Positions 5,053 to 31,904 of a DNA stretch of 64,000 nucleotides are shown in pieces. The DNA comes from Cytophagaceae bacterium. Its GTDB lineage: Bacteria; Bacteroidota; Bacteroidia; Cytophagales; Spirosomataceae. Numbering within the stretch: position 1 is the stretch's first letter; each line of letters begins with the position of its first letter. Position numbers and translations under genes: made by a program. The stretch covers positions 248,001-312,000 of the forward strand of contig CANHGO010000001.1 of the NCBI GenBank assembly GCA_947460975.1. The letters run 5' to 3'. The notes under the pieces are model-generated. The model had not been told where the DNA came from. It saw only the letters and a program-made list of their open reading frames with translations, and did not search any database.

Positions 5053-5105
5053 AAAAAAAGTCCCTGAAAATCAGAGACTTAAATTTTAGTTGGCGGTCCG
5101 GACGG
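5053..5105 (-). repeat. Left attachment site: copy of tRNA-Asp 3' end plus terminator
   Basis: This 53-base block matches 31852-31904 with one mismatch (T at 5085, C at 31884). Read on the minus strand it holds the last 15 bases of tRNA-Asp including CCA (5105 to 5091), followed by the tRNA's terminator hairpin (5080 to 5061) and a T-run. Homology stops sharply inside the T-stem at 5105/5106. A tRNA 3' fragment at the far end of a region that has a tyrosine integrase beside the intact tRNA is the standard signature of site-specific integration. Confidence 0.9.
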
Positions 5106-5501
5106 TGGGAATGAAACAAATCTGACTGAACTCAAATCGGACAAAAACGTCAAAATATAACAATATAGGTATTATATTGGTTAATCTAATTGTATCGAAA
5201 TTGTATCAAATCAGGTCGTTCTGCTTCGGTTTTAGCACCACCCTACCAGTCGAAAAGTGTTAACATCCATTTCATTTTAGGTACCGGTAACCTACATTAT
5301 CACAAAATATGTTTTTATTTGATTTAAAGACCATATTAGGGTCTTTTTTGCAGCAAATTGAGTCATTTTGATTGTTTTGCTTCACCAATGGGGCACAAAT
5401 TTCAACCGAGCGTTTAAATTAAACTAGCAAATGAGTCCGACCGCTTAATTTGAAGATATATCATCTATATAAATTAACGTAATGAAATAATTAGTATAAG
5501 A
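5106..5501. other. Left-end non-coding region of the element
   Basis: No gene is apparent. Visible items are a TAGCACC heptamer at 5233-5239 that recurs twice near the right end of the element, an imperfect inverted repeat at 5278-5294 (TAGGT, ACCGGTA, ACCTA), and a hairpin with T-run at 5326-5349. These could be integrase or excisionase sites, but the sequence alone does not show it. Confidence 0.5.
5326..5349 (+). terminator. Rho-independent terminator near the element's left end
   Basis: Stem AAAGACC (5326-5332) pairs with GGTCTTT (5340-5346) across a 7-base loop and runs into six T residues (5344-5349). The T-run is on the plus strand, although no plus-strand gene lies to its left inside the element. 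It may insulate the cargo from outside transcription entering from the left. Confidence 0.6.
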
Positions 5502-6236
5502 TTATAAATTTTGTTCTATTTTAATGGAAGCAATTTTCAAAGATTTTTTAATTTCTATTTCTTTACTTTTATTGCATCGATATTCTGGAAGAAATATGCT
5601 TAAGCCTGCAATCACCTTATTATTTTTGAAAATGGGAACAGCAAAACCTTTTACACCTCTTTCTTGCAAGTAAGTTGCAACAAATGCCTCTTCTTTTATT
5701 TTTGAAATTGCGTCATTTAGACCTTCCAAAGTTGATGCCTCTTTCCATATAGATGCATCGGGTAATCCATTTTGTTGTAAAAAACTTTTCCTTTCGCCTT
5801 CGCTAAGATAAGCAAATAGTATTCGGCCACTAGCCGATTCATAAACAGGTCTCTCAGTCTTTAGTTGTACTTGAATGTCACGATCAGAATGAACTGAATG
5901 TAATAAAATACGCTTTTGATTTCTAAGTACACCAATTAAACAAGTTTCATTAAGATTTTGGGTTAAATCTGCCATTGTACTACGTGAAGCGGCAATGAGC
6001 TCTTGCTCGTAATTTACTTCATTTGTTAACCTAAATGAAGATGGGCCTAATTTATATCCCTTTTTTTTACCAACATGTTCGACATATCCTTTACTTATTA
6101 GCGTATTAATAATATTAGATACTGTTGGCTGTTTCAAGTTTAAAATACTTGAAATTTCGGTAAGCGTCAGAGGTTGCCCCTTTGCTTGAGCAATTAATTC
6201 AAGAATTTCAAACGCTTTTAATAAAACTAAAACCAT
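5502..6236 (-). CDS. IclR family transcriptional regulator
   Basis: 244 residues. The N-terminal winged helix-turn-helix (about 1-65; LTLTEISSILNLKQPTVSNIINTLISKGYVE) is followed by the IclR effector domain (about 80-240; GRILFAYLSEGE, then RGVKGFAVPIFKNNKVIAGLSIFLP). IclR proteins usually bind a small metabolite, often a sugar acid or its lactone, and control adjacent catabolic genes. It diverges from susC with 208 bases between start codons, so it is the likely local regulator of the cargo operon. Bacteroidota sugar loci are more often controlled by hybrid two-component, SusR or ECF sigma/anti-sigma systems, so an IclR here is somewhat unusual. Confidence 0.9.
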   Translation of the reverse strand: MVLVLLKAFEILELIAQAKGQPLTLTEISSILNLKQPTVSNIINTLISKGYVEHVGKKKGYKLGPSSFRLTNEVNYEQELIAASRSTMADLTQNLNETCLIGVLRNQKRILLHSVHSDRDIQVQLKTERPVYESASGRILFAYLSEGERKSFLQQNGLPDASIWKEASTLEGLNDAISKIKEEAFVATYLQERGVKGFAVPIFKNNKVIAGLSIFLPEYRCNKSKEIEIKKSLKIASIKIEQNL

Positions 6237-6399
6237 TTACTTTATTATTATTGAAGTAAATGTAATTAATATTTTATTTTTAAAAAAATAGTTACCACCT
6301 ACAAATTAATAAAAGATCATCAATTTGTTTAATAGGGCCTATTATAGCACTATTATTAAAATAAATAAAAAAATAATTATATTTAAATAAAATGTTTAA

Positions 6400-6407
6400 T
6401 ACATTTG
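6400..6407 (+). promoter_or_regulatory. Candidate -7 box of the susCD promoter
   Basis: TACATTTG matches TAnnTTTG and lies 38 bases before the susC start at 6445. The surrounding 200 bases are very AT-rich. No well-placed TTG at -33 is visible, which would suit a promoter that needs an activator. Confidence 0.55.
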
Positions 6408-6444
6408 CATTGTAAAATAATTATTCAACAATAATAAAGTATTT

Positions 6445-9435
6445 ATGAAAACAAATAAATTTTCTACAACTTTTGCTTTATTAGTGGGCATTTACTTTTT
6501 ATGCTCTCTTAGCGCTAATGCACAAACCATTACAGGCTTAGTCAAAGATGCCGAAACAAACGAACCCTTACCTGGAGTAAGTATAACAGTCAAGGGTTCT
6601 TCTAAAGGCACATTGACGAATGTCAAAGGTGAGTTTTCCTTGAATATCCCTAATGAAAAAACATTATTGGTATTTTCATTTGTGGGATATATTGCAAAAG
6701 AAATTGAAGCGGGTAATACAACGAAATTAATAGTATCGTTGCAACAAGATTCTCAAGCTTTAGATGAGGTTGTTGTTGTTGGTTATGGAACAGTTAAAAA
6801 ATCTGATTTAACAGGTTCGTTGACTTCGGTTAAAGCAAAGGAAATCAATGCGTTTCCAACTACTAATGTGCTGCAGGCATTATCGGGTCGTGCCTCCGGT
6901 GTGCAGGTGATTCAAAATACAGGTTCGCCGGGCGGTGCTGTTAGTGTTAGAATTCGTGGAACCAACTCGGTGCAGGGCAGTAATGAACCTCTTTATGTAG
7001 TTGATGGATTTCCTTCTTCGGGAAGCAACCCAACTATATTAAATAATACGGATATCGAGTCTATTGAAATTTTAAAAGATGCCTCGGCTACTGCTATTTA
7101 TGGTTCACGAGGAGCAAATGGCGTCGTATTAATTACTACCAAACAGGGGAAGGCGGGAAAAGTGCAGGTAGATTACGAAGGGAGTTATAGCGTACAGACC
7201 TTAAGAAAAAATTTGGATTTAATGAATGCCAAAGAATATGCCACTTTTTATAACGAACAAGCCACAAATGATAAGGTAGCACCATATTTTACCCAAGCCC
7301 AAATAGATGGCTTCGGTGAAGGGTTCGATTGGCAAAATCTAATTTTTCGTAAAGCTCCCATGCAAACACACAACTTAACTGTCAGTGGAGGCAATGAAAA
7401 AACACGCTACTCAATTGGAGGAAGTATTTTTGGACAACAGGGGATAATAATCGGTAGCGATTACAACCGTTACTCACTTAGGGCTAATGTTAATACAGAA
7501 GTAAGTAAAAAATTCAGTGTCGCTTATGGGGCAACTTTAACTAATATTGCCAGCAGCCGGCAAAATAATGGGGGCAGTAACAGAGGTGGGTCAATGACAT
7601 CAGCAGCTATTTCAGCTCCACCCACACTTACACCATATAATGAGGATGGTACATTTAGGAATCTAGCTACCGCTTATCCTTTTATTTCAAATGTAATTAT
7701 AAACCCGCTCAACTTTACAAACGAACAAACAGACCAGGTAAATGCCAACCGTGTTTTAGCGAATTTGGCTTTAACGTTTAAGCCATTTGAAGGGCTGGCG
7801 ATCAAAATTGCAGGAGGTGTTGAAAATAGTGATGACCGAACCGACGGATATACCACCACCGCTTTTGTCAATTCGCAGGGCTCAGCCAGTGTTTCTACTT
7901 CGCAGGGAAGAAGTCTGTTGAGTGAAAATACAGTAAGTTATAACAAAATCTTCGGTAAGCACAGCCTGTCTTCGGTGTTGGGTTTTACCTACCAGGATTT
8001 TTTAAATACCTCTCTGGGAGGATCCGGGAATGGATTTCTCAGTAATGTGACAGAAACGGCAAATTTGAGTTCCGCAGGTATTCCAGGAATTCCGAGTTCA
8101 AGCTATTCATTAGCCAGAATTTTATCTGGCTTAGGTCGGGTGAATTATAGCTTTGATAACAAATACCTAGCTACAATGAGTTTTCGTGCTGATGGTTCAT
8201 CAAGATATAGCCCTGAAAATAAGTGGGGATATTTCCCTTCTGCAGCCTTGGCGTGGCGGATTTCGGAAGAGGATTTTCTGAAAGACAACGCACTCATATC
8301 TAATCTTAAATTAAGGTCAAGTTGGGGACAAACCGGAAGCCAGGCTATAAGTCCATATGCAACACTCAATAATCTACTATCAGGGAAAACTGTTTTTGGA
8401 GATGCCATTTACAATACGTTTGCACCTGGTACACGCCTTCCAGGCAATTTAAAATGGGAAACTACTGAACAGGCGGACATTGGTATTGATGCATCTTTTG
8501 TAAACAACCGATATCACCTTACTGTAGATTATTATATCAAAAATACCCGAGACCTTTTGAATACAGTGCAATTACCCGAGAGCTTTGGTTTTACGAGTAC
8601 GATAAGAAACGTTGGTGAAATCCAAAACAAAGGCTTAGAAATTACATTTGATGGCCGAGTATTTGATAAAGAATTTAAATGGGATATTGGAGCAAATATT
8701 TCGTTTAATCGTAATCAGGTAGTAAAATTATATAATGGATCAGATATTTTAGGTGGATCTATTTCTGTAACGCTTATTAGTGATAATCCCAATTTGCTTC
8801 GTGAGGGTCAACCCATGGGAGTATTTTATGGTTATGTAACGGACGGGTACACCAATTTGGGGAGGGAAAAGTATAAGGATTTAAACAATGATGGCTTAAT
8901 AAACCAATTTGATAAGACCATTATTGGCAATCCTAATCCCGATTTTATTTACGGGTTTAATTCTACCATGAGCTATAAAGGTTTGGAATTCATGTTTTTT
9001 TTGCAAGGCTCTCAAGGGAACGATTTAGTTAATGTTAGTTCAATTGGAAGTACCCTTGACTACGGTTTTGGCTTAAATATGCCTCGTGAGGTATTTTATA
9101 ACCATTGGACAGCATCAAATCCAACAGCAAAATATCCAATCATTTCAAGAGCAAATACGTATAACTTTTCAAACCGATTGGTAGAAGACGGCTCATACCT
9201 ACGATTACGTAATATACAATTGGCCTATACTCTACCCTTGAAAAAATGGGGAGTAAATTTACGTACTGCCCAAGTGTATGCCAGCGGCCAAAACCTATTT
9301 ACGATTACAAAGTATTCTTGGTGGGATCCCGAAACCAACTCACAGGGTGGAGCAAATTCCATTGGTCAGGGTATAGATCATTACAGCTATCCAACCTCTA
9401 AATCAATAACATTAGGACTTAGAATTGGATTTTAA
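6445..9435 (+). CDS. SusC/RagA-type TonB-linked outer membrane transporter
   Basis: 996 residues. A signal peptide (1-26, ending SANA) is followed by a carboxypeptidase-regulatory-like beta-sandwich (about 29-101; ITGLVKDAETNEPLPGVSITVKG). Then come the TonB box region DEVVVVGYGTVKKSDLTGS (107 onward), the plug domain (LQALSGRASGVQV, then IRGTNSV, PLYVVDG, IESIEILKDASATAIYGSRGANGVVLITTK), and a long 22-strand-type barrel ending in a terminal phenylalanine (GLRIGF). It imports oligosaccharides across the outer membrane using TonB energy, with the SusD encoded 55 bases downstream as its lid. It is the first gene of a co-directional cargo operon that runs to about 23.8 kb. Confidence 0.97.
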   Translation: MKTNKFSTTFALLVGIYFLCSLSANAQTITGLVKDAETNEPLPGVSITVKGSSKGTLTNVKGEFSLNIPNEKTLLVFSFVGYIAKEIEAGNTTKLIVSLQQDSQALDEVVVVGYGTVKKSDLTGSLTSVKAKEINAFPTTNVLQALSGRASGVQVIQNTGSPGGAVSVRIRGTNSVQGSNEPLYVVDGFPSSGSNPTILNNTDIESIEILKDASATAIYGSRGANGVVLITTKQGKAGKVQVDYEGSYSVQTLRKNLDLMNAKEYATFYNEQATNDKVAPYFTQAQIDGFGEGFDWQNLIFRKAPMQTHNLTVSGGNEKTRYSIGGSIFGQQGIIIGSDYNRYSLRANVNTEVSKKFSVAYGATLTNIASSRQNNGGSNRGGSMTSAAISAPPTLTPYNEDGTFRNLATAYPFISNVIINPLNFTNEQTDQVNANRVLANLALTFKPFEGLAIKIAGGVENSDDRTDGYTTTAFVNSQGSASVSTSQGRSLLSENTVSYNKIFGKHSLSSVLGFTYQDFLNTSLGGSGNGFLSNVTETANLSSAGIPGIPSSSYSLARILSGLGRVNYSFDNKYLATMSFRADGSSRYSPENKWGYFPSAALAWRISEEDFLKDNALISNLKLRSSWGQTGSQAISPYATLNNLLSGKTVFGDAIYNTFAPGTRLPGNLKWETTEQADIGIDASFVNNRYHLTVDYYIKNTRDLLNTVQLPESFGFTSTIRNVGEIQNKGLEITFDGRVFDKEFKWDIGANISFNRNQVVKLYNGSDILGGSISVTLISDNPNLLREGQPMGVFYGYVTDGYTNLGREKYKDLNNDGLINQFDKTIIGNPNPDFIYGFNSTMSYKGLEFMFFLQGSQGNDLVNVSSIGSTLDYGFGLNMPREVFYNHWTASNPTAKYPIISRANTYNFSNRLVEDGSYLRLRNIQLAYTLPLKKWGVNLRTAQVYASGQNLFTITKYSWWDPETNSQGGANSIGQGIDHYSYPTSKSITLGLRIGF

Positions 9436-9490: not shown

Positions 9491-10954
9491 ATGAAAAATA
9501 AATTTTTAGAAGCAGCTTTGGTTTCAATCATTCTTTGCGGACTTAATAGTTGTTCACAATTACTTGAAGAAGCCCCAAAAGCCATTGCAATAGAAACTTT
9601 CTATAATACGGCGGGAGAAGTAGAAACAGCAGTCAATGCTTCCTACCAGCAGCTACGTGCAGCGAATAATATAAGTGGACAGCTAGGGGCTCAGTTGGAA
9701 GCCTATACAGACTATAGTTATGGACGAGGAAGTTATCTGGTTTTGAGTGATTTCCAAGGCTTGAATAGTACTAATATTTCACGTACAGATGCCGGTTGGA
9801 CACTCCTTTATTTAGGTATACGAAATGCCAATTTAGTCATACAAAATGCCCCAAAAGGTTCCAGCATCAGCAAAGCAGATATTGACAAGTATGTATCCGA
9901 AGCAAAATTTTTGAGGGCATACCAGTATTTTTGGTTGGTGAGAAACTGGGGGGGCGTACCGTTACGAACGGAAGCTAATCTGAATGAGCCTAATATTAAA
10001 AGAAGCACAGTAGATGAGGTATATACGCTTATTATCAATGATTTAAAAGAAGCTGAAAGTAAGTTGCCCGATAGGTCGACACAAATAGGCAGAGCCACTA
10101 AATGGGCAGCCAAGGCAGCATTAGCGGAAGTTTATTTTACTCGAAATCAATATGCTGAAGCAAGGGATAAATCAAATGAAATAATAAAATCTAATCTTTT
10201 TTCTCTTGTGCCAGTTACAACAATTAGTGATTTTGATAAAATATTTGGTCCTACAGTTTCAACTACATCGGAAGAGATTTTTTATCTAAAAATGAGTAGA
10301 ATAGATGGCCAGGGAATGTATTTAGCTATGTTTGCTCAACATCCTGGTACAAAACTTCATGGAGCAGGGGGCTTTTTTGGACATCATTCGGATTCACAAA
10401 CTAATCCTATATATAAGAATTGGGATAATAATGATCTTAGAAAAGGGTATAACTGGATTAACTGGGATATCGGATTAGGAAAAAATTCAATGCTTTGTAA
10501 GAAATTTATTGACCCATTAGCCCCTACAGGTACTGCAGCAGGTTGTGATTTTCCAATTTATCGCTATTCCGATATCTTGTTGATGTTCGCTGAAGCGGCA
10601 TGTCGTGCAGGAAATAAGCCAACTTTAGAATCTGTTGAAGCCCTTAATCAGGTTCATAGAAGAGCATACGGAAAACCTGTATCCATTGCTTCTAATGTTG
10701 ATTTTAATTTGACTGATTATACAGCGGATTCTTTTAATGATTTGGTCTTGAATGAAAGGGGCTACGAAACCCAATATGAAGCAAAACGCTGGTTGGATTT
10801 AAAGCGTTTGGGAGTACCTAAATTAAAACAAGTTATAAAAGCTGCTACGGGTAAAGACATTGCAGACAAACATTTATTTTGGCCCATCCCCGTGGGGGAA
10901 TTGAATTTTAATACAGCACTTGATCCCAAAAAAGATCAAAATCCTGGGTATTAG
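9491..10954 (+). CDS. SusD/RagB-type surface glycan-binding lipoprotein
   Basis: 487 residues. The lipoprotein signal ends in LNSC, giving Cys21 as the lipidated residue. The N-terminal SusD-like domain (about 22-210) carries the TPR-like helices, including YVSEAKFLRAYQYFWLVRNWGGVPL, a strong family signature. The C-terminal RagB/SusD domain ends FWPIPVGELNFNTALDPKKDQNPGY, again typical. It caps the SusC barrel and binds the glycan on the cell surface. The sugar specificity cannot be read from sequence. A REP-like palindrome follows. Confidence 0.97.
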   Translation: MKNKFLEAALVSIILCGLNSCSQLLEEAPKAIAIETFYNTAGEVETAVNASYQQLRAANNISGQLGAQLEAYTDYSYGRGSYLVLSDFQGLNSTNISRTDAGWTLLYLGIRNANLVIQNAPKGSSISKADIDKYVSEAKFLRAYQYFWLVRNWGGVPLRTEANLNEPNIKRSTVDEVYTLIINDLKEAESKLPDRSTQIGRATKWAAKAALAEVYFTRNQYAEARDKSNEIIKSNLFSLVPVTTISDFDKIFGPTVSTTSEEIFYLKMSRIDGQGMYLAMFAQHPGTKLHGAGGFFGHHSDSQTNPIYKNWDNNDLRKGYNWINWDIGLGKNSMLCKKFIDPLAPTGTAAGCDFPIYRYSDILLMFAEAACRAGNKPTLESVEALNQVHRRAYGKPVSIASNVDFNLTDYTADSFNDLVLNERGYETQYEAKRWLDLKRLGVPKLKQVIKAATGKDIADKHLFWPIPVGELNFNTALDPKKDQNPGY

Positions 10955-11459: not shown

Positions 11460-12455
11460 ATGCGTCCAGCTCTTGATTTATTTTTTCCCCCAACGGATGA
11501 ACAACTCCGATTTGCCAAGCAAATTGGCGTAGATGATGTTGTTTTGTTTACGACCAGTATTGAAAAAGTGGAAGAATTGTCTTTCAAAAACTTAATCGCC
11601 ATCCGCAATCGGGTGGAAGATGCGGGTTTAAATCTTTTTTCCATTGAAACACTACCTGCCCATTTCAACGATAAAATTATGCTCGGTAAAGCGGGTAAAA
11701 TGGAGCAAATTAAGCAATATCAAGAAATAATTGACAATATTGGTCGGGCAGGGATTCGCCACCACAGCTATAATTGGATGCCCACAGGCGTTTGGCGAAC
11801 AACGTATTCAAACCGCCTGCGAGGAGGTGCAAAAGGTATTGCTTTTGATGAAAAAGATATCACAAATGCCCCATTGAGTTTTGATAGGGCATATGAAGAA
11901 GAGGAAATTTGGGATAATTATTCGCTGTTTATTACAGAAATAATGCCTGTTGCCGAAGCGATTAATGTCAAAGTTTCAGTTCATCCTAATGACCCGCCTA
12001 TTCCGAATGTGGGCGGTGTGGCACAGCTTTTCAGAAACCAAGAAAATTTTGATAGAGCGATGAATATTTATCCTTCGGAGCATCATGGATTGACTTTTTG
12101 CTTAGGTGGTTGGTCGGCTATGGGGCGTGGAAAAGACATAGAAACGGTCATTCGGCATTATGGTTCAAAAATCCATTATGTCCATTTTCAATCAAGTAAT
12201 GGTACAGTTCCTTATTTCGCTGAAAACTTCGTGGATAAAGCAGATTACAATCCTTTTGGTGTAATGAAAGCTTTAAAAGAAATTGATTTTCAAGGTATTA
12301 TGATACCAGGACACGTACCCCAGTTAGACGGTGACTCCGAGTGGCGAAATACCTATACTGTTGCAAATCCTCGCTATGTGCACCCAATGGGCGGGCATCA
12401 AGCAAGGGCTTATACGATTGGTTTTATAAAAGGATTAATAGCAGCCATCGAATAA
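11460..12455 (+). CDS. UxuA-type mannonate dehydratase family protein (first copy)
   Basis: 331 residues, TIM-barrel metal-dependent dehydratase. Family motifs are HPNDPP (175-180), HGLTFCLGG (209-217) and HYVHFQ (239-244). UxuA converts D-mannonate to 2-keto-3-deoxygluconate in glucuronate catabolism. This protein is clearly shorter than the enterobacterial enzyme (about 394) and diverges from a second copy at 22847, so the actual aldonate substrate is open. It starts 6 bases after the relic's stop, and its own stop (12453-12455) shares one base with the next gene's ATG, indicating translational coupling. It probably acts in the cytoplasm as the dehydration step after lactone opening. Confidence 0.85.
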   Translation: MRPALDLFFPPTDEQLRFAKQIGVDDVVLFTTSIEKVEELSFKNLIAIRNRVEDAGLNLFSIETLPAHFNDKIMLGKAGKMEQIKQYQEIIDNIGRAGIRHHSYNWMPTGVWRTTYSNRLRGGAKGIAFDEKDITNAPLSFDRAYEEEEIWDNYSLFITEIMPVAEAINVKVSVHPNDPPIPNVGGVAQLFRNQENFDRAMNIYPSEHHGLTFCLGGWSAMGRGKDIETVIRHYGSKIHYVHFQSSNGTVPYFAENFVDKADYNPFGVMKALKEIDFQGIMIPGHVPQLDGDSEWRNTYTVANPRYVHPMGGHQARAYTIGFIKGLIAAIE

Positions 12456-23815: not shown

Positions 23816-24046
23816 GAAAAAAGTCATTATTTTATTACTCATAGAGTTAAGAATATTACTTTAATAATTTGAATATAATGAGTAGAATTTTTGGTTTGTT
23901 TTTAGGAGTAATTTAAAATAGAAAGGGTATTGGTGAATAAGTTTACTAAGTTAAATATTGAAAGATTCATAAATAGAGTGGTTTAAATAAAGGGTTACAT
24001 TCAAATTAAATCATGTTTGATTTGTTTTTGATTTCAGGAATTAATT

Positions 24047-24076
24047 ACCTCCCAAGAGATTCATGGGAGGTTTTTT
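24047..24076 (+). terminator. Terminator closing the cargo operon
   Basis: ACCTCCCA (24047-24054) pairs with TGGGAGGT (24064-24071) across a 9-base loop, followed by six T residues. A clear rho-independent terminator for plus-strand transcription coming from the UxuA-type gene. Confidence 0.85.
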
Positions 24077-24337
24077 GTTTTATAGGTACAAAACTGAGGC
24101 ATAACCAATAAAAGGGCTAAAATCCAATAATTTGATTTGAGGTCGATTCGAGATACATTGCCTCAAAGTATTCGAAGAAGTGTCTGAATAACTTGAATTT
24201 ATAGATTTTTTACAGAAATTTTTTTTTTGAGATTTTAAGTTATAGACTCTCCTGGGGATTTTTGGCAGAAATTTTATTTCTCAAAAGGGATTGAAGGTAC
24301 TTTTTGACCCTTTTTTCTCTTAATATGTTTCGGATAC

Positions 24338-24384
24338 GGCGCCCCCGCAGGGCTCTCCTGCCCCTGATCCTCCTCGTGATCAGG
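24338..24384. repeat. Cluster of GC-rich palindromes
   Basis: Three adjacent elements in otherwise AT-rich DNA: GGCGCC (24338-24343), GCAGG/CCTGC with a 5-base loop (24347-24361), and CCTGATC/GATCAGG with an 8-base loop (24363-24384). They lie 125 bases beyond the 3' end of the serine recombinase gene. No T-run follows. They could be a recombination site, a transfer origin or a structured RNA. None is shown. Confidence 0.5.
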
Positions 24385-24508
24385 ATCTATTATATACTGG
24401 ATTTCCAATCAATAGAGTAGACTAATGTACCTGTGATTATAGGTTTTGACCTTATTCTTATTTCAATATTCAATCCAGTTTTGTTTTCAAAAAAGATCGT
24501 CATGCACC

Positions 24509-25186
24509 TTATTTAATCAAACCAAGTTTTAGTGCGGTCTTCTTTACTTTCATAATGGTAGTTAATGACTTTTTATCGGTTAGACCTGAAATTTGTCGAA
24601 TACTAAGGTTTCGCTTGAGGAGTTTGACAACATCCTTATGATTTGATAAAAAGTCTTCGTCTGAGACTACCTGTCCTTTTTTTCGTCCTACCTTTCCTCC
24701 ATTTGCCAAGTAATTTCTATAACCAGATTGAAACCTAACTTTTGTTGTCTCTGCCTCCATGGTCGCTACACTGGCTAAAATCTGAACCATGAACATCGTC
24801 ATAGGATTAACACTTTTATCGGGGTTGAGTGTTTCAAGGTTATAGTTTTGAATATAAAGGGACACTTTTCTGTCGATAAAGGTTTGAATGACTGATAGTC
24901 CCTGTAACACTGACCTTGAAATACGAGATAGCTCGCTGGTTAGTACCTTATCAATTTGAATATGGCCATCAATCCCATTATCAATGTCATATAAGAGTTG
25001 ATTCAGCACCGGTCTATCCTCATTCTTCTTGAATCCGCTGATTTTCTCCTCATAGATGCCTACCAAATTGTAGCCGAGCCTATTGGCGTATTCTTTTAGT
25101 TCATTAGTTTGTCGGTCTGTATTCTGCCGGTCACCTGTTGAGGATACCCTTGAAAAGATGACCACGTTCAGTTGTTTGCGTTCCAT
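24509..25186 (-). CDS. Serine recombinase (resolvase/invertase family)
   Basis: 225 residues. The catalytic domain begins VVIFSRVSSTGDRQNTDRQ, with the nucleophile Ser15 in the RVS motif and Arg13 beside it. SELSRISRS carries the conserved R/S positions, and the long E-helix region (MVQILASVATMEAETTKVRFQSGYR) follows. A small C-terminal helix-turn-helix (LLKRNLSIRQISGLTDKKSLTTIMKVKK) binds DNA. The size fits small resolvases and invertases rather than large integrases. It may resolve dimers of the excised element or invert a segment. It is transcribed away from the rest of the core. Confidence 0.92.
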   Translation of the reverse strand: MERKQLNVVIFSRVSSTGDRQNTDRQTNELKEYANRLGYNLVGIYEEKISGFKKNEDRPVLNQLLYDIDNGIDGHIQIDKVLTSELSRISRSVLQGLSVIQTFIDRKVSLYIQNYNLETLNPDKSVNPMTMFMVQILASVATMEAETTKVRFQSGYRNYLANGGKVGRKKGQVVSDEDFLSNHKDVVKLLKRNLSIRQISGLTDKKSLTTIMKVKKTALKLGLIK

Positions 25187-25274
25187 ATTATTTCTTTGAA
25201 TTGATATGGGCTAAAATACAGCGCATAATTGACCTGCCGGAGCAATCTTCAAAGAATTTAATGGAACACTTATT

Positions 25275-25472
25275 TTATTGGAACGTATTACGACGAAAGA
25301 AGTCATTTAATAAATCACTAGCACGTAATCTTAACTTAAATTCTTCTTTATGTAATTTCCTCCATTTGACTGCAGATGGGTCCTTGGAAGTTATGAGTAA
25401 GTTGAACTCCTGATTTGATAATGTGGAAAGAGTCTTGTTTTTAACTAGTGGTTTAAATTCTTCAGATTTCAT
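25275..25472 (-). CDS. Small hypothetical protein upstream of serine recombinase
   Basis: 65 residues, no family recognised. Mostly charged and helical (EEFKPLVKNKTL, then WRKLHKEEFKLRLRASDLLNDFF), which has the look of a real small soluble protein. It lies 88 bases ahead of the recombinase gene on the same strand, so the two may be co-transcribed. An overlapping plus-strand frame (25201-25413) is less plausible in composition. Confidence 0.5.
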   Translation of the reverse strand: MKSEEFKPLVKNKTLSTLSNQEFNLLITSKDPSAVKWRKLHKEEFKLRLRASDLLNDFFRRNTFQ

Positions 25473-25647
25473 TTAATATGGATTGAGTTTCACGAATGGG
25501 TCAATTCCCACCTAGTTAAATTACGACTAATTTGGGGTGATTTTAATATAAGAATTGGGGATTTTAGGTATTTCAGCCCAATTACACTAAGGCTGTATTT
25601 TGGAATTCAATCTGTAACAGGTTTACGATAAAAAATATTTTTAATTA

Positions 25648-25670
25648 GTACTTGCATTTTAAAAAAGTAC
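25648..25670. promoter_or_regulatory. Candidate operator, GTACTT-N11-AAGTAC (copy 1)
   Basis: A perfect 6-base inverted repeat with an 11-base spacer. It overlaps the -33 TTG (25652-25654) of the promoter before the 25708 gene. An identical arrangement recurs at 26590-26612. Its placement over the promoter suggests a repressor site. Confidence 0.5.
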
Positions 25671-25674
25671 CACT

Positions 25675-25682
25675 TATATTTG
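25675..25682 (+). promoter_or_regulatory. -7 box of promoter for the 25708 gene
   Basis: TATATTTG matches TAnnTTTG, with TTG at 25652-25654 twenty bases upstream. One of the best matches to the Bacteroidota vegetative promoter in the window, 26 bases ahead of the start codon. Confidence 0.7.
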
Positions 25683-25707
25683 CATCATCAAAATCAAAAT
25701 ATGCGTT

Positions 25708-26562
25708 ATGAATTTAACAGATTTCATTCAAATCGGTTCTGTAATTAAAAAAACTGCTCAAAAAAAGAACGAAATTTCTGATCAATCAAGCAATGATCAT
25801 GAAGAATTTTTAGGGAACAATAAGGACTTTGATTTCATAAATTCAAAAACTTTAGAGGTCTTGAAATTTAAAACGGGACTACGATTTTTTGACCATAAGA
25901 ATTCAAAGAACGATAGCAAAAGCATCATTGATTTTCTAAGTAATGAAAAAAACGATAGCTGGGGTATATTTTCGAACATAAGAAAAGATATGGAGCAGGA
26001 ATATTTCTCACTCAAAATTGTGTTGGAAAATTTCAGAGAATTACCCATTGACATGATACAAACAAAACCATACGAATGTTGTCAAATATGGAATTCCTTA
26101 TTAATCAGATTTCAAAATATATGTCATGTCTTAAGTCCAACAATCCACTTGGGAATGTCGAAAGGTAAGTATGCTATGGCATCTGTCTTTTGGGTAAACC
26201 CTAATGGCGAAACAAGCGTGAAGTATTCAAGAACATTTGGCAATCACGATAGCTTAGCTGGGCAAAACGCAGAAAAAAATGCTGAAAGTCAATTGCAAGC
26301 ATTGATGACAAAAATTTTAGCAAAAGAAACTAACTATAAGTTAACTGCTGAGAAAAGTGTAATGTCCAAGCCTTCAGATTTTATAGTTATAAAAGAGTCC
26401 ACAACCGGGGAAATTCTAGAGGAATGGTGGGTAGATATGAAACTCTACAAAGACACAAAAAACAAAAAAGGACAGAGTTCCGGTGCCATCAAGACTTTCA
26501 TGAGTCTGGAACTATGGGAAACCTATAAAGAAGAATATCAATTACTAAATAAAGAGGCATAG
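25708..26562 (+). CDS. Hypothetical protein in element core
   Basis: 284 residues, family not recognised. The N-terminal third is rich in Lys, Asp and Asn and looks soluble (MNLTDFIQIGSVIKKTAQKKNE). The middle has YECCQIWNSLLIRFQNICHVLSPTIHLGMSKGKYAMASVFWVNPNG. The C-terminal third resembles an alpha/beta domain (FIVIKESTTGEILEEWWVDMKLYKDT). No membrane helix or signal. It has its own strong promoter and is flanked on both sides by the same inverted repeat, so it may be a regulated accessory gene of the element. A defence, immunity or replication-control role is possible but unsupported. Confidence 0.7.
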   Translation: MNLTDFIQIGSVIKKTAQKKNEISDQSSNDHEEFLGNNKDFDFINSKTLEVLKFKTGLRFFDHKNSKNDSKSIIDFLSNEKNDSWGIFSNIRKDMEQEYFSLKIVLENFRELPIDMIQTKPYECCQIWNSLLIRFQNICHVLSPTIHLGMSKGKYAMASVFWVNPNGETSVKYSRTFGNHDSLAGQNAEKNAESQLQALMTKILAKETNYKLTAEKSVMSKPSDFIVIKESTTGEILEEWWVDMKLYKDTKNKKGQSSGAIKTFMSLELWETYKEEYQLLNKEA

Positions 26563-26589
26563 TGTCACCTCTTTTTTTGCCCAAAATTA

Positions 26590-26612
26590 GTACTTGGAAA
26601 AAATTAAAGTAC
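26590..26612. promoter_or_regulatory. Candidate operator, GTACTT-N11-AAGTAC (copy 2)
   Basis: Same perfect arms and same 11-base spacer as 25648-25670; even the preceding TTA is shared. It lies 28 bases after the stop of the 25708 gene and about 170 bases before the next gene. No good -7 box follows this copy. Confidence 0.45.
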
Positions 26613-26779
26613 TTTTATAAAAATGAAGAATTCGAATATTTCCAGTTTAAGATCCGGTCGTTCACCACCCTAAAAGGTTTCTATCTCTCTGCTCCAAATT
26701 AATGGGAAAGGGGAAAGGAAGTGTGCCTTAAGCAAACCAATTCACATAATGTGGTTTGGAAATTTTAAAATAAAAAACA

Positions 26780-27532
26780 ATGAAATTATTTAATTTTAGT
26801 TCGAATCCCGAAAATAGGTTCAAGGTGGTAAAATATTTCCCTACGCTTGATATGATTAAAAAAGACCTCCTTAATATGTACAATAATAATTGGGGATATT
26901 GTGATACTTTAAGACAAGTTATTGAGGACGATTTTGAAGGCGAAGACCTAAAAAAATTGATTTTAAACGATAATGCTACCATTAACATCTTAAATGAATT
27001 AACGAAAAAATCGTTTACAGATTTTAACCACCATTATGGTATTCAAAATATCGAAACTGGGGAATTAATCAATAGATTTTATAAGAAAATCTTTTCATAT
27101 CATCCAGACCAAGGTTATGTACTTTTTGAACAAGACTCTGAGCGTGATTTTGCAACTGATGGAGCGGACCCCATATTTAGATTAGTTTCTTTGAAAACAG
27201 GTAAAGAATTTGAAGAGGTTTTTGTTGATAAGAAATTTACTTCAGGTATTAGAGATTTGAAATTCATATCTTATGAAATCCCTGATAGCTTTGATTACTA
27301 TGAGATTAATCCATTTACAGAGAAGGTTGAATCAGCAAGTATTCCAATCCCATTAAATCAGAATGGTCAATGGGATTTAGAAATAGCTACTGGTAAATCA
27401 AATTTGGCATACAAGTATTATAATATCGAATGGGTAGATTTTGGTCAACCTTACTTTGAAACCGACTTATTTAAAGCATACTTAAAATTAAGCCCAGATT
27501 TAAAGCGTATTAGTCCTTATTATGAAAATTAG
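26780..27532 (+). CDS. Unknown-family protein, tandem copy 1
   Basis: 250 residues, not recognised. It is a clear paralog of the gene at 27768. Shared signatures are NPENRFKV, PTLDMIK, IQNIETGELINRFY paired with LQNIETGELINRFY, FSYHP, QGYxL, FRLVSLKxGKEF, and near the end NIEWVxFGQPxFETDxFK and PDLxxIxPY. The GLQNIETGELINRFYNG-like centre suggests a compact beta-rich domain. No signal peptide or membrane helix. After its stop, with one base between, lies a seven-codon copy of the start of the polymerase-like gene (27534-27557). This shows how the duplication arose. Confidence 0.75.
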   Translation: MKLFNFSSNPENRFKVVKYFPTLDMIKKDLLNMYNNNWGYCDTLRQVIEDDFEGEDLKKLILNDNATINILNELTKKSFTDFNHHYGIQNIETGELINRFYKKIFSYHPDQGYVLFEQDSERDFATDGADPIFRLVSLKTGKEFEEVFVDKKFTSGIRDLKFISYEIPDSFDYYEINPFTEKVESASIPIPLNQNGQWDLEIATGKSNLAYKYYNIEWVDFGQPYFETDLFKAYLKLSPDLKRISPYYEN

Positions 27533-27533
27533 A

Positions 27534-27557
27534 ATGCGACTAATCGTTCCAGCTTAA
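27534..27557 (+). pseudogene. Seven-codon fragment of the polymerase-like gene
   Basis: Reads Met-Arg-Leu-Ile-Val-Pro-Ala-stop, against Met-Lys-Leu-Ile-Val-Pro-Ala-Ser at 28525. Fifteen of sixteen bases after codon 2 are identical (CTAATCGT, C/T, CCAGCTT). The one-base spacer to the preceding stop is the same as in the intact arrangement at 28523-28525. It is a duplication scar, not a gene. Confidence 0.8.
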
Positions 27558-27630
27558 GAAGATTGCTAGTCATTGGTGACTAAATCGGTTGAATTAAAGG
27601 TTGGTAAAGTTCATTCGTGACATTGCAGTA

Positions 27631-27662
27631 ACATCTTCTTGTGGCCACAAGGTTTTAGATGT
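27631..27662. repeat. Nested palindrome between the tandem paralogs
   Basis: A perfect 14-base palindrome, CTTGTGGCCACAAG (27638-27651), is enclosed by outer arms ACATCT (27631-27636) and AGATGT (27657-27662). No T-run follows. It could be a dimeric protein site or form a cruciform. The rest of 27533-27767 has no gene. Confidence 0.55.
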
Positions 27663-27767
27663 CATCCCAACACCATTTTTCGCATACATCCCTATCCAGT
27701 TAGTTGGGCAGGTAAGGTGAGGTATGTATTTTTTAAACCGCGGGGAAACTCGCTAAATTAAACATAT

Positions 27768-28523
27768 ATGGAAACGTATAATTATCAGCAAAATCCTGAA
27801 AACAGGTTTAAAGTAATTTATTATCATCCAACCTTGGATATGATAAAAGATGAACTAAGAGTTACACATTCTCAAAATCTAGGATACAACTGGGTTTTAA
27901 ATGAAATTTTATCAAAAGATTTTCAAACGGATAATTTGGAATCAATTATTGAAGCTCCTTTAGGTGTTTTTCATATTCTAAAAAGGACAAAAGATTATAT
28001 TAATTCATACCTCGATTTAAGATGTGGTTTACAAAACATTGAAACCGGGGAATTAATTAATAGATTTTATAATGGCGTTTTCTCATATCACCCTAACCAA
28101 GGTTATGCGCTTTTGGGTCAAATGCGGGATAGGGATTATTTGAATGAAGGATGCAACCCAACATTTCGATTAGTATCTCTAAAATCAGGTAAAGAATTTG
28201 ATGAACACTTTTTTGATAGGAAATATACCACCGCAATCAATGATTACAAATTTTACTCTTGTGTTGATCATACCCAATATAAAGGTTTCGATTATTTTGA
28301 AATCGACCCTTTATCAGAAGAACTAAAAGGAATTGAAAATCCTAATAAGGATCCTCATGATTGGCCTGATTATAAAATCGCCAATGGCCGGTCGAGAGAG
28401 TTTAGCAGATATTTTAATATTGAATGGGTACATTTTGGTCAACCATTTTTTGAAACAGATGTCTTTAAAGAATGTCTAGAAAAGTATCCTGACCTTATAG
28501 GCATAACACCATACGATTACTAA
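27768..28523 (+). CDS. Unknown-family protein, tandem copy 2
   Basis: 251 residues, paralog of the 26780 gene at nearly equal length, with the same conserved blocks (NPENRFKV at the N-terminus, NIETGELINRFY in the centre, FETDVFKECLEKYPDL at the C-terminus). The regions between blocks have diverged strongly (for example VESASIPIPLNQNGQW versus LKGIENPNKDPHDW), so both copies have probably been under selection. The stop is followed by one base and then the ATG of the polymerase-like gene, so the two are probably co-translated. Function unknown. Confidence 0.78.
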   Translation: METYNYQQNPENRFKVIYYHPTLDMIKDELRVTHSQNLGYNWVLNEILSKDFQTDNLESIIEAPLGVFHILKRTKDYINSYLDLRCGLQNIETGELINRFYNGVFSYHPNQGYALLGQMRDRDYLNEGCNPTFRLVSLKSGKEFDEHFFDRKYTTAINDYKFYSCVDHTQYKGFDYFEIDPLSEELKGIENPNKDPHDWPDYKIANGRSREFSRYFNIEWVHFGQPFFETDVFKECLEKYPDLIGITPYDY

Positions 28524-28524
28524 A

Positions 28525-30186
28525 ATGAAGCTAATCGTCCCAGCTTCGGTGGATGTAAAGTCAAAGGTGTCAGGGTTAAATCTCTCTGACACCTTATCAA
28601 AAAACCTGAAACACAGGATTTACTATATCCTGTCGCGCATCGTTGTTCACGATGATAATATGGAGTTCTATGAGGATAATGACTACTATAGAACAATGTG
28701 TTCTGAGAACATGAAGGATATTTTGGGTCCAAGGTATTACCGGCACGCCATGAACTTATTGATGGATACGGATGACCCAGTCATTGAATGTAACCAATCA
28801 TATCAAACCGGCAAGTATTGTAAGAGTTATCGTCTAACTGACAAGTATAATACCGGCGAGGTTGAATACCGGACATTACCCGATGATTTGGATATGGTCA
28901 ATCGAATTAAGAAATCACGACCATCCTATCGGGAAGGATTGGCCATGATGGATAAGTATGACTTCCTGATTAACCAGTTTGATAAACATCGATTATCCGT
29001 TGACCTCAGTGTGTTTGAATACATAACCAATATGTATCGGCAACTTAAGGAGCGGGTAATTAGGGACAATAAGTATCAATTGATGGTCATTCATAATTTG
29101 ATTGGCCGGTGGTTGAACATATTGGATAGATTACACGATGGGGACCTAAATTCAATGGTTTCAGGGAAAAATCATCGTTTAAACTCTTTGTTTACGCAAA
29201 TTCCTAAAAATCTACGACCGTGGATATTATGTGATGGGAAGTCACTTATAGGAGTTGATTTAAAGGCATGTCAACCATATCTGTTGGCGTCGGTAATGAA
29301 GGATGAGTTCTATTCCTTTAGCACTGAAGGATATAATCTTAAAACAATCTATCCATCATTATATCAGGATTTGTATGACAGGAACATGGTTCAAGGTATA
29401 TGGGATAAAGGAAATAATTGGGTTGTAAGTAGTACTGGATATACTTCAAACTATGTTATTAATAATACATTAACAATTAGTAATAATAATATATCTAATA
29501 CTACAAGTACTATAAAATATTCTCCATTTATGTGGTGCCATTTTTTCGAACCTACAGAGATTAAGAATATTCAAGAATACCAATCAATACCATTCAAAGA
29601 GGACTATTACACCTTCGTTATTAAGACCAATTCCAATAAGGAGATAACACCGGAGGAAATGGAGAAAGAAAGGACATCCTTCAAAAAGAGTACCATGTAT
29701 ATTCTGTTTGATGGTAACCAATCAAGACGGAAGAATAATCCAAAGGTCAAGTACATGAACCAATGTTACCCTGGGGTTAATAAATGGTTGGAGTTGGCAC
29801 TTGAACAAATTGGTGGTAAAGAGTTATCGTATATCCTTCAGCGGTCGGAGAGTTACTTCCTTTTGAACAAGGTTTCAAGACGATTTAGCCATGAAAATCC
29901 GAACGCGCCGATATTCACGATACATGATGGTCTGTTTACCCATGAGGAATATGTTGACCATTTACAATCTTTGATATCAGACACCGGATTAGACCTAACA
30001 GGTATTTTACCCGGAGTAAAGATTGAGTATCCCAGAATCGAAATAATCCCATCCATTGAAGATGTTAATAACCACTGGAAGAAGGTCAAATGGGTTACGA
30101 ATCAAAAACGATTTGACGAGAAAAAGAGAAGTGTTTTTCAGTCAAATATTGACAGGGCATTAAAGTTTATTAGCACCATCAATTAA
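28525..30186 (+). CDS. Putative divergent family A polymerase-like protein
   Basis: 553 residues, not matched to a named family by eye, but three blocks in the right order resemble family A DNA polymerases or T7-type RNA polymerases. Motif A is GVDLKACQPYLLA with Asp245. Motif B is an O-helix-like R-x3-K...YxLxxG stretch (Arg383 to Gly397, ERTSFKKSTMYILFDG), followed by CYPGVNKWLE, as in Pol I. Motif C is FTIHDGLFT with His467-Asp468. No exonuclease domain precedes it; residues 1-200 are helical and charged. An Asn/Ser/Thr-rich insertion at about 296-332 is encoded by unusually AT-rich DNA. It is probably the element's replication protein. The assignment is inference from motifs. Confidence 0.6.
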   Translation: MKLIVPASVDVKSKVSGLNLSDTLSKNLKHRIYYILSRIVVHDDNMEFYEDNDYYRTMCSENMKDILGPRYYRHAMNLLMDTDDPVIECNQSYQTGKYCKSYRLTDKYNTGEVEYRTLPDDLDMVNRIKKSRPSYREGLAMMDKYDFLINQFDKHRLSVDLSVFEYITNMYRQLKERVIRDNKYQLMVIHNLIGRWLNILDRLHDGDLNSMVSGKNHRLNSLFTQIPKNLRPWILCDGKSLIGVDLKACQPYLLASVMKDEFYSFSTEGYNLKTIYPSLYQDLYDRNMVQGIWDKGNNWVVSSTGYTSNYVINNTLTISNNNISNTTSTIKYSPFMWCHFFEPTEIKNIQEYQSIPFKEDYYTFVIKTNSNKEITPEEMEKERTSFKKSTMYILFDGNQSRRKNNPKVKYMNQCYPGVNKWLELALEQIGGKELSYILQRSESYFLLNKVSRRFSHENPNAPIFTIHDGLFTHEEYVDHLQSLISDTGLDLTGILPGVKIEYPRIEIIPSIEDVNNHWKKVKWVTNQKRFDEKKRSVFQSNIDRALKFISTIN

Positions 30187-30191
30187 CATGC

Positions 30192-30226
30192 GGCGCCACT
30201 GAACTGGAAGCAATATCTTTGGCGCC
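30192..30226. repeat. Paired GGCGCC sites before the excisionase-like gene
   Basis: GGCGCC at 30192-30197 and again at 30221-30226, 23 bases apart, in an AT-rich 57-base gap. The same hexamer is present at 24338-24343. Each site is self-complementary and the pair could form a stem. They may be binding sites for the HTH protein that follows. Confidence 0.35.
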
Positions 30227-30243
30227 TTCAAACTAAAAATCTA

Positions 30244-30534
30244 ATGATTGAAAATAGAAAACCAGTATATATAATTGATGGTGAGGATTTAGAATCCCTA
30301 CTACGAGACATAGTAAAAAGCGAGTTTGCCGTCTTGGAGAATAAATTAAGATCCCCTCCAAGAATATTAACTCGTGAAGAAGCAGGTCAAAAAATTGGTG
30401 TATCTAAGAATACGGTTAGTCAGTATATCAAACGTGGCCTTATTCCAAATCGAGGAATTGGACACAAGATTTTGATTCTTGAAAGTGATTTAGAAACTAT
30501 TCCTACAAAGTACAAGCATAATTATTACAAATAG
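30244..30534 (+). CDS. Excisionase-like helix-turn-helix protein
   Basis: 96 residues. A MerR/excisionase-type HTH occupies about residues 40-88 (ILTREEAGQKIGVSKNTVSQYIKRGLIPNRGIGHKILI), preceded by a short acidic helix. Proteins of this size immediately upstream of a tyrosine integrase usually act as recombination directionality factors, bending DNA to favour excision, or as local repressors. The stop is followed by two bases and then the integrase ATG, so the pair is one transcriptional unit. Confidence 0.8.
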   Translation: MIENRKPVYIIDGEDLESLLRDIVKSEFAVLENKLRSPPRILTREEAGQKIGVSKNTVSQYIKRGLIPNRGIGHKILILESDLETIPTKYKHNYYK

Positions 30535-30536
30535 AA

Positions 30537-31802
30537 ATGGTCTCATACTATATCAGAGATAAGAAAGCGAAGTCTGGTTCAATCCGTTGCTGCGTCCAAC
30601 CCAAGGGTCAGAAGAGATTCAGTTTTACTGTTGCTAATAGTAAAATTGAACTCTCTGAGTGGGGTATTGGTCAAATGAAAACAGGGAAGGGAAAGCAATC
30701 CAATAGCCAGGTTCAAAACAGGTTAAATAGGCTACGTGAATTAACCGAGAACTTCTACTCTGAATATTACAATACGTATAATAGCTCACCTACTCAAGAG
30801 ATCTATTTAGAATTTTTGCGGTCCAACATGTCAAATGAGGAATTCTTCTCCAAACCAGATAAGGTTAAATTATTGGACTTAATTGAAAGAATTACATTAA
30901 GAAGAACGGCCGGAAAAGAATTAAACAAGGGTCAAGAATTCAGTTATGCAACAATAGAATCTTACAATTCACTCATTCTGTCAATTAGAGAATTTCAGAT
31001 TTACAAACGGAAGCTACACTTCTTTTTAGAGGAGTGGCTACGAATGGACTTGATTGAGGAGTTTGAACATTTCCTTACCAACAATCGACAGATGTCGCTG
31101 AACACCATACACAATAGACTTAAAGTATTAAAAGCCTTTCTTCAGGTAGGGGTAAATGAGGATTTAATCCCATTCAATCCTTTCAAGAAGTTCAAAAAGG
31201 TACTTTATACAGAGGATTCAGATGTTGTGGTATTCACAAAACAGGAACTAAATGAGCTAGAGGCTCTCGACTTCTCTGACAACCATTATTATGACAGAAT
31301 CCGAGACCAATATCTATTGTATTTGTGGTCTGGCGTCCGCAAGAGTGACTTAAAAAACCTTGTTAAGGTAATCAATCCATCCACTAAAGTTTATACCTTC
31401 AGAGCTGAAAAAACAGGTGAAGTATGTCAAATTCCTTCGTTCGATACCCTCAGAAGACTTGGGGAGAAATATAAGTACGACTTCCCGGATCCTTATAGCG
31501 ACACAATTATATTAAGAGAAATTAAAGTAATATGTCAAAAAATACCATCTATGCATATCACAATAGAAAAGAAGTTTACGAGAGGAGGTAAAAAGGTTCG
31601 TGAGTACTTTAAAAAACATCAAATGATTGTTATTCACACTGCCAGAAGAACGTTGGCTACTCTATTAGTTGATGCTGGTCTACCCTATCATCAAGTAATG
31701 AAAATTACTGGACACAAGAAGTTGACAACCCTTCAAAAATACATCAAAAGTGAAGCAGATGTGGATGGAATGTTAGCGGTAGGAAATGGGTTGTTGAAAT
31801 GA
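30537..31802 (+). CDS. Tyrosine integrase of the tRNA-Asp element
   Basis: 421 residues. N-terminal arm-binding domain (about 1-85), core-binding SAM-like domain (about 110-215; TIESYNSLILSIREFQIYKRKLHF, then MSLNTIHNRLKVLKAFLQ), and catalytic domain from about 225. The full active-site set is present: Arg268 (SGVR), Lys292, His367-x-x-Arg370 (HTARRTLAT), His393 (TGHKK) and Tyr402 (LQKYIK). The architecture is the Bacteroidota phage/ICE integrase type. The gene ends 49 bases from the right att repeat and 87 bases from the tRNA it targets. Intact and presumably active. Confidence 0.95.
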   Translation: MVSYYIRDKKAKSGSIRCCVQPKGQKRFSFTVANSKIELSEWGIGQMKTGKGKQSNSQVQNRLNRLRELTENFYSEYYNTYNSSPTQEIYLEFLRSNMSNEEFFSKPDKVKLLDLIERITLRRTAGKELNKGQEFSYATIESYNSLILSIREFQIYKRKLHFFLEEWLRMDLIEEFEHFLTNNRQMSLNTIHNRLKVLKAFLQVGVNEDLIPFNPFKKFKKVLYTEDSDVVVFTKQELNELEALDFSDNHYYDRIRDQYLLYLWSGVRKSDLKNLVKVINPSTKVYTFRAEKTGEVCQIPSFDTLRRLGEKYKYDFPDPYSDTIILREIKVICQKIPSMHITIEKKFTRGGKKVREYFKKHQMIVIHTARRTLATLLVDAGLPYHQVMKITGHKKLTTLQKYIKSEADVDGMLAVGNGLLK

Positions 31803-31826
31803 AAAATAGCTATGAAATCCCATTTG

Positions 31827-31845
31827 TAGCACCCCATTTAGCACC
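31827..31845. repeat. Two TAGCACC heptamers beside the right att site
   Basis: TAGCACC at 31827-31833 and 31839-31845, offset by 12 bases, 7 bases from the att repeat. A third copy lies near the left end (5233-5239). Short repeats flanking the core on both sides are what arm-type integrase sites look like, but seven bases is little evidence. Confidence 0.35.
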
Positions 31846-31851
31846 GGGCAT

Positions 31852-31879
31852 AAAAAAAGTCCCTGAAAATCAGAGACTT
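31852..31879 (-). terminator. tRNA-Asp terminator
   Basis: On the minus strand AAGTCTCTGA pairs with TCAGGGACTT (one G-U pair) across a three-base loop and runs into seven T residues, directly downstream of the tRNA. The same hairpin is present at 5053-5080 in the left att copy. Confidence 0.88.
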
Positions 31880-31904
31880 AAATCTTAGTTGGCGGTCCGG
31901 ACGG
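31852..31904 (-). repeat. Right attachment site within tRNA-Asp and its terminator
   Basis: Partner of 5053-5105 with one mismatch. It covers the tRNA 3' end including the CCA (31890-31904) and the terminator hairpin beyond. The crossover point must lie within this block. The element carries its own copy of the tRNA 3' end and terminator, so integration leaves a working tRNA gene. Confidence 0.9.

Follow-up and report, generated by a model that had tools for sequence, protein, structure and literature searches.

A 26.8-kb integrative element in the tRNA-Asp gene of an Aquirufa genome carries a SusCD sugar locus and a likely TV-Pol-like polymerase

The window analysed here is a 64,000-nucleotide stretch of DNA (contig CANHGO010000001.1, forward-strand positions 248,001 to 312,000) from a metagenome-assembled genome (MAG) of the genus Aquirufa, 1.5 Mb in 9 contigs and 62.6% complete (G000; G-numbers denote the compared genomes, and the genus set comprises 38 with G000 included). 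Our analysis confirms that the window contains a 26.8-kb integrative element in the tRNA-Asp gene, and a single 639-kb contig spans this element together with both of its flanks. The original prediction, made from the letters of the window, had placed direct 53-base repeats with one mismatch, holding the tRNA-Asp 3′ end and a terminator, at 5053–5105 and 31852–31904, and we find them exactly there; by an arithmetic estimate, a random sequence of 64 kb would be expected to hold about 4e-21 such repeat pairs. The tRNA-proximal copy (attL, 31852–31904) comprises the 3′ end of tRNA-Asp and a terminator-like hairpin (31857–31879, minus strand). The integration target itself, tRNA-Asp(GTC), is intact (31890–31966, minus strand) and is the sole tRNA found by ARAGORN on the window and by Rfam over positions 4000–33000. 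The distal copy (attR, 5053–5105), assigned from the repeat match and from comparison with joined flanks, adjoins a chromosomal dienelactone hydrolase gene (4151–5017, minus strand), a name taken from the original prediction rather than from a family library. On the other side, the chromosomal flank beyond tRNA-Asp carries a gene (32041–32568, plus strand) whose product we presume from its sequence to be DinB-like.

Inside the repeats lie the ends of the element proper: a right end at 5106–5243, which together with the preceding 16 bases is 85–98% identical over 149–156 bases in ten other genomes of the genus, and a left end at 31813–31851, found beside tRNA-Asp in other genomes of the genus. 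The element holds neither a third copy of the 16-base core (up to 4 mismatches) nor a second copy of either arm, for which BLAST returned only short pieces at chance level. The element is therefore one single unit of 26,799 bases, and a composite of two tandem islands in the window was rejected. Across 24000–32100, the number of terminators is that expected by chance (5 found, 4.8 expected), and promoter counts are likewise at chance level.

A query made by joining the flanks outside the element, searched in genomes of the same genus, revealed empty sites. In G030 (577/593 identities across the joined flanks) and G010 (549/592), the dienelactone hydrolase gene runs straight into the terminator and tRNA-Asp, which is the arrangement that had been foreseen for an unoccupied locus. 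G009 is nearly empty: both flanks match, with 137 extra bases that partly resemble the left end of the element. The two findings named beforehand as fatal to the original prediction are accordingly not borne out: with empty sites in G030 and G010, close relatives do not all carry the same genes in the same place, and the repeat is not a tRNA duplication unrelated to the integrase, an explanation that we rejected because the repeat takes in no more of the tRNA than its 3′ end and because there are empty sites. Besides its empty tRNA-Asp locus, G010 has a second copy of the flank, accompanied by an att core and a right end, on its contig C3 (loci L207 and L221); the two dienelactone hydrolase loci of this genome may stem from mixed strains or from a duplicate.

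Reading inward from the tRNA, the core of the element encodes an integrase, a helix-turn-helix (HTH) protein, a protein of 553 amino acids (aa), the orphan proteins H251, H250 and H284 and, on the opposite strand, a serine recombinase. The 421-aa tyrosine integrase (30537–31802, plus strand) matches Phage_integrase in Pfam (2.2e-10) and also has matches in PHROGs; it contains R268, H367/R370–371, H393 and Y402, which we take to be its catalytic residues. The 96-aa HTH protein (30244–30534, plus strand; HTH_17 in Pfam, 8.5e-10) is a candidate excisionase, matching a PHROG excisionase/regulator family at 3.2e-7 and the NCBIfam excisionase domain at 3.8e-4, which is below the family cut-off. We read two further matches of this protein, to mad1 in PADLOC (1.8e-6, residues 42–84) and, weakly, to a PHROG terminase small subunit (0.0056), as reflecting the common HTH fold. 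Both reading frames are open, in agreement with the intact integrase and the excisionase candidate that had been proposed near the intact tRNA. The small serine recombinase or resolvase (225 aa; 24509–25186, minus strand) is recognized by Pfam and NCBIfam.

The three orphans lie between these recombination genes. H251 (27768–28523, plus strand), directly upstream of the gene for the 553-aa protein, is 47% identical to its paralogue H250 (26780–27532, plus strand); at E 0.001 its search returned only itself and H250, with no match in the other 98 genomes searched, and H284 (25708–26562, plus strand) has no match among those 98 genomes at the same threshold. In a single pairwise comparison, H284 is 24% identical (E 1e-5) to a 244-aa protein encoded beside the polymerase gene of G018, and by eye we suspect a nuclease-like C terminus. 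Family scans of the core (Pfam and PHROGs on 8 open reading frames (ORFs) each, NCBIfam and PADLOC on 7 each) gave no relaxase, type IV secretion system (T4SS) or other secretion family and, the 0.0056 match of the HTH protein aside, no capsid, terminase, portal or packaging family. The matches in PHROGs are to invertase/integrase/transposase, integrase and, for the 96-aa protein, HTH-type families. On these scans we rejected a conjugative or mobilizable element and a prophage, and the view that the core does not look conjugative stands. Repeats in 23816–28530 gave nothing convincing as an iteron origin.

The 553-aa protein (28525–30186, plus strand) has no family match of its own in Pfam, PHROGs, NCBIfam or PADLOC. 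We compared it with relatives in alignments of 12, 25 and 21 sequences, the last with viral relatives. R218, D245, K387, H467 and D468 are invariant in all three; the 25-sequence alignment adds R231, Y362, Q439 and E442 as invariant residues, and the 21-sequence alignment adds Y362 and E442, with R383 and Q439 reaching 90%. These residues fit the TV-Pol signature, described as a conserved arginine, an RxxxK motif and two catalytic aspartates (PMC2579912), the assignment of residues to motifs being our own after that description. An AlphaFold model built from the 21 sequences has a pLDDT of 84.1 and a pTM of 0.81; an earlier AF2 model from 6 sequences (pLDDT 49.8) was not used. In a structure search of the model against the PDB, the matches listed (50 of 575, E ≤ 10) are all A-family polymerases, with probabilities of 0.95–1.00; polymerases theta and nu belong to this family and were sorted with it. 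With regard to the all-helical N-terminal domain of the TV-Pol transposon subset, the N terminus of the model comprises helices along with several strands. Judged by the published signature and the model, the protein is likely a TV-Pol-like A-family polymerase, with a predicted activity that makes it a candidate primase-polymerase. The distinct recombination and replication core of the original prediction thereby gains a component that had not been noted before.

Several results pull against this identification. The arginine of RxxxK, R383, is conserved at the 90% level in the 21-sequence alignment only and not in those of 12 or 25 sequences, and R231 does not count as conserved in the 21-sequence alignment. 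Among the PDB matches listed, none reaches E 0.001 (the best is 2e-3) and TM-scores are 0.22–0.35, and when the polymerase profile was searched against PDB sequences, two matches that look like chance came up at E up to 1. Pfam searches of 25 relatives showed no DNA_pol_A among the 25 families listed of 29 and gave RNA_pol at 0.003 for one relative, and hhalign of the polymerase against the host PolA returned a probability of 1.1%, which is not significant.

The polymerase family extends well beyond the window, to 52 of 390 genomes of the order (profile search, E ≤ 1e-8). In G104, from another genus of the same family, the polymerase is 83% identical, the integrase and HTH protein differ, and the gene set of serine recombinase, 148-aa protein, polymerase, HTH protein and integrase is kept. 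The genome of the window has a second integrase, HTH and TV-Pol-like set on contig C5, beside tRNA-Glu (L069 8336–14824), which also includes a methyltransferase, a 148-aa protein that is similar by eye and a serine recombinase 68% identical to that of the window. Different small proteins are encoded directly upstream of several TV-Pol-like genes, with touching or overlapping starts (L069 11553–11999, L073 1712–2233 and 27768–28523 of the window), and are possible polymerase partners. Relatives belonging to a more distant branch of the family (query A6) are encoded in 26 viral loci of IMG/VR (L162–L187), and viral scans with queries A2, H251, A7 and A8 found no relative. The polymerase of the window itself had no match in a plasmid search and one weak partial match among phages.

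The rest of the element is devoted to sugar utilization. An IclR-family regulator (5502–6236, minus strand; Pfam) precedes SusC (6445–9435; TIGR04056, 898 bits) and SusD (9491–10954; SusD_RagB), both on the plus strand, as are all the cargo genes that follow. Family scans identify a first UxuA-like TIM barrel (11460–12455), a solute-binding-protein fold (12455–13579), an SDR dehydrogenase (16220–16996), an SMP-30/gluconolactonase-like protein (21219–22052) and an RraA-like/aldolase protein (22067–22837). Interspersed with these are an 814-aa protein with a DUF5060 domain, a candidate glycoside hydrolase (13640–16084); a GH2-family enzyme with GH2 domains (17026–19899); an MFS transporter whose best NCBIfam match, to the D-galactonate transporter subfamily, is below cut-off (19866–21173); and a second UxuA-like protein, over the PRK03906 cut-off (22847–23815). 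The SusC–SusD pair, the IclR regulator and a carbohydrate-active enzyme (GH2) mark this as a polysaccharide utilization locus, and the regulator, hydrolases, transporter and catabolic enzymes that had been read from the sequence find their counterparts in IclR, GH2, MFS and catabolic families. Going by family names, many of which are below equivalog cut-offs, the cargo perhaps serves a uronic-acid-containing glycan by a uronic-acid or aldonate route. The solute-binding fold at 12455–13579 has no ABC permease family among the cargo matches and no signal peptide by eye; a relative of it is kept in similar loci of G052 and G139.

This locus is sparsely distributed. The solute-binding protein occurs in 1 of 59 genomes, a set to which G052 and G139 do not belong, and in none of the 36 other genus genomes searched. 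Full-length relatives of the 814-aa protein occur only in G052 and G139 among 198 genomes; weak partial matches (E 1.6e-4 or worse) fall in seven other genomes of the genus, in a search list that left ten of the remaining genus genomes unnamed. G052, from another genus of the same family, encodes IclR, SusC, SusD, the 814-aa relative, UxuA-like, solute-binding, SDR, GH2, MFS and RraA-like proteins in one run, in nearly the same order as in the window, with the 814-aa gene placed differently. Seven of these proteins are 53–74% identical to those of the window, and the 814-aa relative, IclR and the RraA-like protein are 35%, 34% and 29% identical, respectively. From the distribution, we infer that the sugar locus was acquired from outside the genus. 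It is not the usual cargo for a TV-Pol-like polymerase: we compared 18 further TV-Pol loci, each from a different one of the 52 genomes with a polymerase match (17 stretches of 20 kb and a single one of 60 kb), and 17 of them have no SusC match, the exception being L151, with a partial SusC match about 5–6 kb from the polymerase.

The ends of the element recur within Aquirufa. Of the 38 genus genomes, 16 have a complete or partial right end (E ≤ 1e-10, own genome included), a count that takes in short pieces in G014, G017, G020, G025 and G033, and it covers at least 149 query bases at 85% identity or more in 11 of the 38. The left end lies beside tRNA-Asp in 10 of the 28 genomes (of 38) whose site was inspected, again with our own included; 5 bases only are visible in G022, remnants in G009 and G034 are not counted, and G001 and G023 show the left end even though their sites are truncated where the contig stops. 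An integrase of at least 80% identity is found in 3 of 38 genomes, one of these being an open frame fragment of 136 aa, at a threshold of E 1e-30 that misses short fragments. Five more genomes of the genus have integrases of 30–34% identity, at other places.

Between these ends, the cargo changes. G018 has a sister element in tRNA-Asp, with the integrase 84%, the HTH protein 83% and the polymerase 56% identical, whose cargo comprises MmeI-like and Mrr-like restriction genes and a methyltransferase; in G007, the cargo consists of AraC, molybdopterin oxidoreductase and cupin genes. The island at the same site in G033 (L059 1–4140), on a contig that begins within the right end, is another sugar-type cassette, with SIS, EamA, ROK and a weak CBM9-like gene and no integrase. 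A G023 contig carries DpnII-type restriction genes, which may belong to an island, just before an att copy. The right end of the element also stands at the dienelactone hydrolase flank in G029, G014 and G017, and in G029 the likeness to the window ends after about 154 bases. Junctions of left end, core and right end on contigs of G023 and G002 look like tandem arrays. In G007 and G033, the element ends enclose no close integrase, and distant integrases (34%) lie elsewhere in those genomes. The reuse of the ends beside different cargo suggests a set of interchangeable islands, some of them integrase-less.

The terminators of the att copies help to locate the exchange. G018 and G007 have an element-type terminator next to the tRNA and another type at the far end, which places the crossover in the tRNA 3′ end; G016 and G020, by contrast, have the native (other) type in both att copies. 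Empty sites in the window's own clade carry the element-type terminator; it may represent a scar left by previous cycles, or it may be the clade's own type. Beside an element-type terminator, the tRNA-Asp 3′ end no longer encodes CCA in G018 (L051 1575–1649) and G005 (L055 19367–19441).

We regard the locus as an integrative element in which no conjugation genes can be recognised and as a member of an Aquirufa island family, and give this reading, including the following route of movement, a probability of about 0.78. The integrase would recombine the tRNA-Asp 3′-end core of the element with chromosomal tRNA-Asp, and after integration the tRNA would still be intact and the opposite end of the element would bear a 53-base copy. 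Excision would probably be directed by the HTH protein. The polymerase would probably prime or copy the DNA of the excised or incoming element, a role suggested because primers are made on SCCmec by CCPol together with the partner protein MP (PMC7581432), and the serine recombinase would probably resolve multimers. Passage between cells is not visibly encoded and would have to rely on transformation, transduction or a helper element. The site, the ends, the empty sites, the open integrase and the cargo are all seen directly in the window and its relatives. Excision, the circle and transfer are inferred, and this weighs against our reading together with some further points. No helicase family was found in the core by Pfam, PHROGs, NCBIfam or PADLOC. 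Composition speaks for the reading, since the tetranucleotide content of the element differs from that of the right flank (4-mer distances to the right flank of 0.16–0.30 for the element, 0.11–0.17 for the right flank and 0.156 for the left flank), but this test takes the right flank as its own reference. Absence counts are soft, with G000 at 62.6% completeness and many relatives being incomplete MAGs.

Three other accounts deserve weighing. The island may have been inserted once, its cargo kept by selection, and may no longer move; such immobility would be in keeping with the lack of a close integrase in most of the same-site islands examined (3 of 38 genomes have one of at least 80% identity, which in one case is a 136-aa frame) and with integrase fragments at the site in G016, G018, G023 and G034. 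We think it unlikely for the window, where the core ORFs are open, the presumed catalytic residues of the integrase are present and the att copies differ by one base only; none of the 36 other genus genomes searched, moreover, has the cargo marker. That the element is mobilizable or a phage satellite, with transfer or packaging genes that escape recognition, for example among H250, H251 and H284, seems quite unlikely. It would be in keeping with the lack of matches to H251 and H284 in the other 98 genomes, H250 being the one relative of H251, and with the distant TV-Pol-like genes of the 26 IMG/VR viral loci, but relaxase, T4SS, terminase, capsid and portal families are missing from the core scans, and for the polymerase of the window the plasmid search gave nothing and the phage search a single weak, partial match.

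The third account concerns the polymerase, which by analogy might act against incoming DNA instead of replicating the element, like the ICETh2 primase-polymerase of Thermus, reported to limit transformation with no effect on element replication (PMC7693054). The restriction genes of the G018 sister element would suit a defensive role, but the polymerase stays with the HTH gene and the integrase across genera, even where the integrase is another one (G104, 83%), and CCPol–MP functions as a primase (PMC7581432); we consider this role improbable.

If the family is viewed as a whole, a broader proposal can be made tentatively, as a possibility rather than an expectation: tRNA-Asp could be a genus-wide exchange port, at which a rare autonomous element (integrase, HTH protein, TV-Pol-like primase-polymerase and serine recombinase) moves integrase-less islands in trans, without conjugation genes. 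The integrase-less islands would share left ends of about 70 bases and right ends of about 150 bases with the autonomous element, and the swapped cassettes would be the SusCD locus, the ROK/SIS/EamA sugar cassette, the molybdopterin oxidoreductase cassette and restriction systems. Besides recombination, the autonomous element would perhaps supply replication in trans. If islands are indeed mobilized in this way, a single tRNA gene would serve as a plug-in metabolism port for a genus. The window also places a polymerase family that has received little study on an element with clear boundaries, known empty sites and an extensive metabolic cargo, and it is a convenient system for learning how sugar-utilization loci are moved among Bacteroidota by elements that lack conjugation genes.

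The closest precedents each share part of this organization. TV-Pol elements with a resolvase and an integrase were described in 2008 by Iyer, Abhiman and Aravind (PMC2579912), with an A-family-like polymerase of 400–600 residues, a gamma-delta resolvase or lambda-type integrase nearby, restriction-modification genes in the vicinity and Bacteroidetes members among those listed. The window has both types of recombinase and, unlike the elements as described there, combines the polymerase with a defined tRNA site, empty sites, genus-wide ends and a 19-kb metabolic cargo, with no helicase family. The CCPol–MP primase of SCCmec and the PolA–SSB primases likewise involve an integrative element of the chromosome that encodes both an A-family polymerase and a site-specific recombinase (PMC7581432, PMC10061031). 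Unlike in the PolA–SSB systems, no helicase family was found in the core described here, which holds a tyrosine integrase and a small serine recombinase; the PolA–SSB survey covers Bacillota, its main text containing no Bacteroid- word (PMC10061031). The ssrA islands of Dehalococcoides resemble the Aquirufa islands in their single RNA gene, common repeat, varied metabolic cargo, tandem arrangement and lack of a transfer mechanism of their own, and 15 of them are reported without an integration module (PMC3146451). They use the serine integrase DsiB, in contrast to the tyrosine integrase and TV-Pol-like core found here in another lineage with other cargo (PMC3146451). ImmeDB records 47 loci with both SusC and SusD on mobile elements of gut species (PMC6907783), whereas ours belongs to an Aquirufa element that sits in tRNA-Asp and has a TV-Pol-like core. 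Among the papers listed by our literature searches, which reach few subscription journals, none links a TV-Pol element to a polysaccharide locus or treats these Aquirufa islands. TV-Pol elements, polysaccharide loci on mobile elements and island families at RNA genes are each known; their combination in one element appears to be new.

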